NCBI GenBank assembly: GCA_028286385.1
Contig: JAQBRQ010000029.1
Location: 1 to 37,944 of the forward strand
Direction of reading: 5' to 3'
From: Candidatus Saccharimonadota bacterium
Lineage (GTDB): Bacteria > Patescibacteriota > Saccharimonadia > Saccharimonadales > UBA4665
Length of the DNA: 37,944 bases
In this document: piece by piece, positions 17,201 through 20,637 of the stretch
Layout of the letters: each line of letters begins with the position of its first letter
How positions within the stretch are numbered: the first letter of the stretch is position 1
The notes under the pieces: model-generated
Database searches by the model: none
What the model was told of the DNA's origin: nothing
What the model saw: only the letters and a program-made list of their open reading frames with translations
Position numbers and translations under genes: made by a program

Positions 17201-17830
17201 ATGTTATCCAATCTTTCCGGTATTGACCTCGTTGTTGTCCTGGTGTCGATTATTGTTTCGTTGACGATCCACGAAGCGATGCACGCCTTTACGGCTCATT
17301 GGCTAGGTGATGACACGGCGCACCGCGAAGGTCGCCTAACGCTGAATCCGCTGGCGCACATCGATGTACTCACTACCGTACTCTTGCCGATGGTGCTCAT
17401 ACTGGCCCACTTGCCGCCAATCCTGGCGGCTAAGCCCGTACCATTTAACCCGGACCGCGTAAAATGGGATGAGTTTGGCGCGGCTTTAATTGGCGTTGCC
17501 GGACCGCTCACGAACCTGGCTTTAGCCGGCTTAGCGGCGATTATTTTCCGACTTTTTGGGGCTGATTTAAGTAGTGGAGTTAACAACGCTATCGTCATAT
17601 TCACATCTGTTAATATTGGCTTCTTTATCTTCAATATGATTCCATTTCCGCCACTCGACGGCTCCCGCTTATTGTACGCTTTTGCTCCTGAGCCAGTGCA
17701 GGCATTCATGCGCCAGATTGAAAGTTACGGCTTTATGGCCATCATCTTTTTCTTCTTTATCGTCTTCCAGTTTATCTCCGGCCCGATCGTCAATATTCAG
17801 AACGCAATCCTTACTTTCTTGCTGCTCTAA
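17201..17830 (+). CDS. Site-2 protease family (M50, YwhC-like) membrane peptidase
   Basis: A 209-aa integral membrane metalloprotease. The zinc motif HEAMH is at 24-28 in the first TM helix, and the third ligand sits in NMIPFPPLDG (N145 to D153). About four to five TM helices; no PDZ domain, as usual for the short YwhC subgroup. It would cleave within membrane segments of substrates such as anti-sigma factors. TATACT (17188-17193) is 7 nt before ATG, so the mRNA is likely leaderless; the -35 is weak. Single gene. Confidence 0.93.
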   Translation: MLSNLSGIDLVVVLVSIIVSLTIHEAMHAFTAHWLGDDTAHREGRLTLNPLAHIDVLTTVLLPMVLILAHLPPILAAKPVPFNPDRVKWDEFGAALIGVAGPLTNLALAGLAAIIFRLFGADLSSGVNNAIVIFTSVNIGFFIFNMIPFPPLDGSRLLYAFAPEPVQAFMRQIESYGFMAIIFFFFIVFQFISGPIVNIQNAILTFLLL

Positions 17831-17835
17831 TCCTG

Positions 17836-18002
17836 TATAATTAGAGAGTCGGGTAGGGCTGTAACAGGCTCATTCCCGGGCATAATGATTATCTGAATAC
17901 TAATCATTAGGGAGCTCAACATTTGCTGCGACCGTGGTCAAGGCGTGCGAGCACCCACCTCGAGTTCGCTCAGGTGATCACGCCCGGTACCCGACACTTT
18001 TT
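17836..18002 (+). ncRNA. Structured RNA of unassigned family
   Basis: A stand-alone transcription unit of about 155 nt. TATAAT (17836-17841) places +1 near 17848. The 5' end GTCGGGTA (17848-17855) pairs with TACCCGAC (17988-17995), followed by TTTTT. Inside are a hairpin AATGATTA/TAATCATT, extended by GGCTC/GAGCT; and CACCTcGAG-ttcg-CTCAGGTG enclosed by GGCGTG/CACGCC. There is no ORF. I see neither the SRP helix-8 motif nor a tRNA-like end, so it is not obviously SRP RNA or tmRNA. A 6S-like role is possible but the fold is branched rather than a single rod. Confidence 0.68.
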
Positions 18003-18008
18003 ATATAA

Positions 18009-18084
18009 CGGGGTGTAGCGCAGTTGGTAGCGCGTACGGCTGGGGGCCGTGAGGTCGCAGGTTCGAGCCCTGTCATCCCGACCA
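18009..18084 (+). tRNA. tRNA-Pro(GGG)
   Basis: Acceptor CGGGGTG pairs with CATCCCG (one G-T), the anticodon loop CTGGGGG gives GGG, and the T arm has AGGTTCGAGCCCT. The discriminator is A and CCA is encoded. It directly follows the terminator of the structured RNA. Confidence 0.95.
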
Positions 18085-18123: not shown

Positions 18124-18161
18124 TTGACATATATAATATAAACTAGTATAATTCTGTATTA
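18124..18161 (+). promoter_or_regulatory. Consensus promoter, leaderless
   Basis: TTGACA (18124-18129), 17 nt, TATAAT (18147-18152), 8 nt, ATG at 18161. Confidence 0.8.
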
Positions 18162-18427
18162 TGAGTGATATGGAACAAAGAGGCGGTGATATGCCCGAAG
18201 GCGAAACACCCGAACCCTCTAACGAAGACGTGTCAAGAGCTGACGTTTATATTACCGCTAAAATGATGAGTGGTATGAGTGCAGGTCTGGCTTTTATAGC
18301 TAATGTTGAATCTATTGCAGGTTGGGACGCTGTTTCTACTAATACTTTGAGAGTAGCAGGTGCGGTAGCGGTAGGCGCTGCTTGTGGAGCAGTTGCGGGC
18401 TTCTTCTCAGAAGACTGTGATAGCTAG
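18161..18427 (+). CDS. Small acidic protein with hydrophobic C-terminal half
   Basis: I do not recognise this 88-aa protein. The first 25 residues are acidic (EGETPEPSNEDVS); residues about 33-52 and 63-81 are hydrophobic and Gly/Ala-rich (VAGAVAVGAACGAVAGFF), probably two TM helices. Reality is supported by a consensus promoter 8 nt upstream. Single gene; the 170 nt after it show nothing else until the next promoter. Confidence 0.65.
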   Translation: MSDMEQRGGDMPEGETPEPSNEDVSRADVYITAKMMSGMSAGLAFIANVESIAGWDAVSTNTLRVAGAVAVGAACGAVAGFFSEDCDS

Positions 18428-20260: not shown

Positions 20261-20626
20261 TGGTCAGATTATTGACTAATCGCCCGCTTCGGCGGGAGGA
20301 AAGTCCGGGCAGCAAAGGGAAGGACAGTCGCTAACGGCGACCGGGGGCAACCCTAGGGAAAGTGCCACAGAAACAATACCGCCTTTGCAAACGTTTCGGC
20401 TGCTGCAAGGTAAGGGTGAAAAGAGCGGGGTAAGAGCCCACATTTGTCCGCGGTGACGCGGAGAAACGGTAAACCCTGTCTGCTGCAAGGAGATGGATTT
20501 TTTGAGCCTAAAGCTCAAAGCGTCCCGCTGAGAATTCATCATAAGATCCGCTTGAGCTCATTGGCAACGGTGAGCCTAGATAGATGATTAGTCTCGACAA
20601 AACCCGGCTTACAGATAATCTGACCA
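20261..20626 (+). ncRNA. rnpB: RNase P RNA (M1-type)
   Basis: The catalytic RNA of RNase P. The core is plain: GGAGGAAAGTCCGGGC near the 5' end, the ACAGAAACAATACCGCC region, GGTAAGGGTGAAAAG, and near the 3' end TAGATAGATGATTA followed by GACAAAACCCGGCTTA. A perfect 12-bp P1 stem (TGGTCAGATTAT 20261-20272 with ATAATCTGACCA 20615-20626) sets both ends, giving 366 nt, the size of a bacterial type A RNA. It processes the 5' ends of tRNAs. Confidence 0.96.
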
Positions 20627-20637
20627 CTTATCATGAT

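Follow-up and report, generated by a model that had tools for sequence, protein, structure and literature searches.

The window, a stretch of 37,944 nucleotides from a Candidatus Saccharimonadota bacterium, carries a stand-alone structured RNA gene of ~150 nt on the forward strand, at about 17848-18000. Upstream lies an open reading frame (17201-17830) that encodes a metalloprotease-like HEAMH motif and, from a by-eye reading of this motif, is likely an M50-type site-2 protease. Downstream, 13 nt past the closing stem of the RNA, starts a tRNA-Pro. The 5' end of the RNA gene is predicted to within about 2 nt and the 3' end to between 17995 and 18002. The gene keeps its own promoter; TATAAT or TATACT occurs upstream in 33 of the 35 homologues, whereas the frequency in other windows of these loci predicts 3.4. 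There is no good -35 element at 17-nt spacing from the TATAAT box. Termination at the T-run is plausible, and a simple terminator scan made no call there because the stem preceding the T-run is long-range; alternatively, the 3' end could be made by processing at the tRNA-Pro. The promoter box, an 8-bp closing stem, the T-run and the tRNA-Pro directly after them had been pointed out in an earlier note on this DNA, and all are present (Table 1). Just past the tRNA-Pro, a perfect consensus promoter (TTGACA-17-TATAAT, 12/12; 18124-18152) stands ahead of a small open reading frame (18161-18427) for a putative protein. A class A RNase P RNA (20264-20627, 254 bits) shares a housekeeping-RNA neighbourhood with the gene.

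Table 1 Features of the RNA gene and its surroundings, in window coordinates. MFE, minimum free energy; the covariance model R2 is described in the text.
Feature	Position	Strand	Basis or remark
-10 box TATAAT of the RNA's own promoter	17836-17841	+	Sequence; conserved in homologues
6S (SsrS) RNA gene, divergent (assignment almost certain)	17848-18002	+	R2 match 17873-17992 (E 1.1e-9); fold z -4.1
Closing stem, 5' strand GTCGGGTA	17848-17855	+	Pairs with 17988-17995; sequence, MFE fold
Optional small hairpin, 5' side of closing arm	17856-17871	+	MFE fold
Basal helix, 5' strand CCGGGC	17876-17881	+	Partner GCCCGG 17982-17987; MFE fold
Alternative hairpin P3, AAUGAUUA / UAAUCAUU, loop UCUGAAUAC	17884-17908	+	Exclusive with P2
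Helix P2 (6S downstream helix), 5' strand UGAUUAUCUGA	17886-17896	+	Predicted pRNA template
Central bubble, 5' strand	17897-17909	+	Consensus fold
Apical stem, 5' strand GGG-A-GCUC	17910-17917	+	Partner GAGC-A-CCC 17949-17956; pair counts
Terminal hairpin of apical arm, with conserved ACCGUGGU	17926-17945	+	Consensus fold
Central bubble, 3' strand; forms alternative hairpin P5, ACCU../..AGGU	17957-17975	+	97% of cells paired
Helix P2, 3' strand UCAGGUGAUCA	17970-17980	+	11 bp with 17886-17896
Closing stem, 3' strand TACCCGAC	17988-17995	+	Sequence, MFE fold
T-run TTTTT, possible termination or 3' end	17998-18002	+	Sequence
tRNA-Pro (GGG), conserved neighbour	18009-18084	+	ARAGORN

The 155-nt stretch folds at -60.5 kcal/mol compared with a shuffle mean of -44.5 kcal/mol (sd 3.9, z -4.1), and none of 200 shuffles was as stable as the native sequence. 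The consensus fold of 35 sequences (alignment A1) is the rod of 6S RNA, comprising a closing stem, the 11-bp helix P2, a central bubble and an apical stem. Double-sided changes occur at 21 of its 33 pairs, and P2 and the apical stem together are 96.9% paired versus 31-51% for controls with slid partners. Taken singly, P2 is paired in 95% of cells in the 35 sequences, with UG/AU/UA exchange at column 82, and the apical stem in 99%, with double-sided changes at 4 of its 7 pairs. The terminal apical hairpin exhibits 9 to 20 double-sided changes at most pairs, and the columns of the basal helix changed on both sides in 4 to 15 sequences per pair. A CTGA(A)TA sequence at the edge between P2 and the bubble is nearly invariant. 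The basal arm of the rod is variable among homologues; the closing stem differs from one to another (for example, GGCTGGG/CCCAGCC in L021) and the small hairpin of the closing arm is missing from several, such as L010. A pseudoknot between GUGG of the apical loop and CCAC was considered and dropped because CCCAC is part of the apical stem and of the 6S consensus. The earlier note had read the locus as a stand-alone RNA with two internal arms and had named covariation across Saccharibacteria as a check. The gene is real, its fold beating the shuffles and its homologues being found across the class, and the covariation is strong, both from pair counts and in the consensus fold. The interior is structured as that note held, but the layout is P2, central bubble, apical stem and two alternative bubble hairpins rather than two arms.

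The first of these hairpins, P3, is formed when 17884-17891 pairs with 17901-17908, joining the 5' strand of P2 to the distal part of the 5' bubble strand. In the second, P5, the 3' strand of P2 pairs with the 3' bubble strand (97% of cells). P3 and P5 together exclude P2. P3 is paired in 96% of cells and shows compensatory exchange of UA to AU in 13 sequences and of AU to UA in 3 sequences at another pair, where the counts of compensatory cells are not counts of independent events. At column 82 (U17890 in the window) 13 sequences have A for U, and in those sequences the P3 partner is U and not A while the P2 partner is U and not G or A. The partners change together, and therefore both of the exclusive pairings, P3 and P2, are kept. 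Nearest-neighbour predictions give the window RNA -60.5 kcal/mol as a rod and -60.1 kcal/mol in the two-hairpin fold, and put about 64% of the molecules in the former and 36% in the latter; over the 35 homologues the median difference between rod and two-hairpin fold is -0.3 kcal/mol, and the two lie within 3 kcal/mol of each other in 29. Shuffling of the distal bubble produced an equally good alternative fold in 35 of 700 trials. In the covariance model R1, built from 35 homologues, P3 stands in place of the rod, owing to a 3'-end shift in the MAFFT alignment of short pieces; alignment A1, which is longer, yields the rod. Other families of the class, and basal lineages, have P3 in shortened form or not at all. 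P3 is therefore not essential for 6S function generally, and it is a lineage-specific addition to 6S RNA.

The Rfam 6S model, RF00013, did not match the window copy at the gathering score (46.4 bits) or at E 10, and a search of the copy's own genome (G000) at E 0.001 returned no 6S match. Searched with all of Rfam at E 10, the RNA itself gave only the tRNA and, on the opposite strand, a snoRNA match due to chance. At a loose threshold, RF00013 matches the homologous locus in relatives with 43.9, 39.5, 32.4, 31.5 bits and weaker scores. In seven genomes (G028, G005, G017, G025, G035, G024 and G004) these matches coincide with those of a DNA similarity search. Three further RF00013-matched homologues (G032 with 43.9 bits, G059 and G037) have diverged too far to be picked up by the DNA search and were also found by R1 (L039, L040 and L041, of which L039 is itself part of the R1 alignment). 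Across 295 genomes of the class RF00013 gave 18 matches at E 0.01, five of them above gathering, and in each of the 12 such loci that were retrieved R1 matched at the same place. An independent test was provided by a second covariance model, R2, for which ten 6S RNAs detected by RF00013 were used, all from outside the window's family. Over the 38-kb window R2 yields a sole match, at 17873-17992, with 52.8 bits and an E value of 1.1e-9; among the window's relatives it finds 28 of 29 at E below 0.001 and the last at 0.023. It also yields the same rod architecture from its independent alignment. The apical stem agrees with the Rfam 6S consensus GGGagccc/gggcaCCC, and CCCACCUgg at the 3' edge of this stem is the Rfam 6S consensus.

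The 6S membership of the window copy, as argued from these sequence models, is transitive because Rfam gives that copy no direct match even at E 10, but the argument runs in both directions. Computation establishes that the RNA is homologous to 6S RNA, is conserved as a single copy across the class and folds into a covarying rod with a central bubble. We therefore regard it as almost certain that the RNA at 17848-18002 is the 6S RNA (SsrS) gene of a Saccharibacterium, its polymerase-blocking function being deduced. The earlier note had assigned the RNA to no known family and had weighed a 6S-like regulator against a new RNA. The RF00013 matches to homologues and the R2 match to the window copy (E 1e-9) refute the latter and bear out the former; the Rfam check for a known family, which that note had suggested, was negative for the window copy itself and positive for its homologues and by way of R2. 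The same note saw no signatures of SRP RNA, tmRNA or RNase P RNA, correctly so. The SRP RNA models (RF00169, RF01854) have no match at the RNA locus, the genome's own tmRNA (RF00023, 61.5 bits) sits on another contig, and its own RNase P RNA (RF00010) lies elsewhere, at 20264-20627.

A DNA similarity search of 60 relatives found the element in most of them. R1 finds the RNA in 181 of the 295 class genomes and in 114 of 129 genera, nearly always as one copy per genome; in the other 114 class genomes it has no match at E 0.001 under strict filters. An exact scan for the core, over one genome per species (84,980 species), returned 40 stretches, and all those named beyond 'bacterium' belong to Saccharibacteria, Saccharimonadia or Patescibacteria, which supports a saccharibacterial origin of the DNA. 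In other classes of Patescibacteria (L095-L103), RF00013 matches 19 of 287 phylum genomes at E 0.001, three of them above gathering. From these matches it follows that 6S RNA is probably widespread and under-annotated throughout the phylum.

Three other explanations were considered. The one that survives best, at low probability, is an RNA descended from 6S that has exchanged the 6S function for another, such as core-polymerase binding or a role as an sRNA sponge. The near-invariant bubble and P3 sequences could reflect a different binding partner, and there is a precedent in Ms1 of Actinobacteria, a rod-like structural relative of 6S set beside the present RNA by description, which differs in binding core polymerase (PMC4191392, PMC9130861). 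However, the present RNA retains every element of the 6S cycle (P2, the bubble, the apical stem and the 3'-bubble hairpin), and all of them covary. A new family with no relation to 6S, sharing a short CCCACCU-like motif by chance, would account for the silence of Rfam at E 10 on the window copy and for the absence of an R1 match to E. coli ssrS at E 1, but is very improbable. It is largely refuted already by the R2 match to the window and is opposed by the two-way matches, full-length and at the same loci, between this RNA and RF00013-recognised 6S RNAs, and by the single rod architecture derived independently from two alignments. Least credible of all is a role in cis, as a leader or processing element for the tRNA-Pro. 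The tRNA follows closely here, and 25 of 30 homologous loci (L001-L030) have it in their flanks, often on the same strand and directly downstream. In some homologues, however, it is far away, on the opposite strand or not detected in the vicinity, and a terminator-like hairpin comes after the RNA (L015, for example); the 6S match accounts for the RNA without such a role.

Typical 6S RNAs are ~200 nt long, and the saccharibacterial 6S RNA, at about 150 nt, is shorter. It resembles E. coli SsrS and the RF00013 family in its closing stem, P2 and central bubble, in an apical stem (GGGagc/gcaCCC) with CACCU after it, and in being present as one copy with its own promoter; it differs in scoring under the gathering threshold of Rfam, the window copy having no match at all. 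In the 6S cycle, holoenzyme is bound via a bubble that resembles an open promoter, a pRNA is made on the 5' bubble/P2 strand, P2 opens, and refolding leads to release (PMC8876501). The parts that this cycle requires are all present and covary, and the function predicted by analogy is a reversible block of sigma70-type RNA polymerase that is released by pRNA synthesis. By imitating an open promoter, the rod would dock in the active cleft of the RNA polymerase that carries the housekeeping sigma factor, and would block the enzyme. The polymerase would then copy the 5' strand of P2 into a short pRNA, 5'-AUUCAGAUAAUCAUU..., with a start opposite U17898 that is predicted from the alignment to E. 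coli 6S alone. Copying would open P2 and free its 3' strand, which could fold with the 3' bubble strand into P5 as the RNA leaves the polymerase. P5 is the counterpart of the E. coli-type 3'-bubble release hairpin, an extended hairpin in which the 3' bubble strand pairs with the 3' strand of P2 (defined in PMC8876501).

In this lineage the 5' strand of P2 may in addition fold back on the 5' bubble strand as P3, and the free RNA is predicted to alternate between the rod and the equally stable two-hairpin fold. The strong extra 5'-bubble hairpin, which makes the two energies equal, distinguishes the RNA from that of E. coli, where forbidding P2 costs 3.3 kcal/mol in a similar calculation; the contrast is therefore one of degree. 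B. subtilis-type 6S is also similar in that its bubble sequence pairs a second way once P2 opens, and a weak 5'-bubble hairpin is predicted there too. Its collapse helix, however, joins the 5' bubble to the 3' strand of P2, whereas the partner of the 5' bubble in the present RNA is the 5' strand of P2, with compensatory changes. A helix of the B. subtilis kind, sought by eye in the present RNA, has at most 4 bp. On the folding model the most likely effect of the additional hairpin P3 is to make leaving the rod less costly, and the likely role of P3 would be to ease release or to hold unbound RNA in a non-binding form. More tentatively, and with rather less than even confidence, we propose that the saccharibacterial 6S RNA may be an evolved two-state switch, in which a polymerase-binding rod and a non-binding two-hairpin fold are held at the same energy, with separate compensatory changes at shared bases maintaining each of them, such that half of the free RNA would be in reserve and release would be independent of long pRNAs.

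The window thus carries an RNA of a known kind, divergent and unannotated, to which a structural element specific to this lineage has been added. With five of 295 class genomes over the Rfam threshold, standard annotation will miss saccharibacterial 6S RNA. In the open-access literature, no work linking 6S RNA with Saccharibacteria was found, nor any mention of 6S RNA among the Patescibacteria papers listed; a search of this scope is weak evidence of novelty. Saccharibacteria have genomes of around 1 Mb or less and live on other bacteria. In 40 genomes (G000 and 39 relatives), no SRP RNA (RF00169, RF01854) was found over threshold, the best score being 22.5 bits in one relative, and none of the 40 has an SRP54-type GTPase over the Pfam cut-off, while SRP54 scores in every one of 14 control genomes. 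That Parcubacteria and many CPR bacteria have lost SRP has already been published (PMC4508563, PMC8080830). Since cultured, transformable Saccharibacteria exist (PMC10633639), a role of 6S RNA in the switch between host-bound and free states is testable. The second hairpin, supported by covariation, offers a natural variant for the study of 6S release from polymerase, and the gene adds a global transcription regulator to Saccharibacteria, in which 6S RNA survives though SRP is lost.
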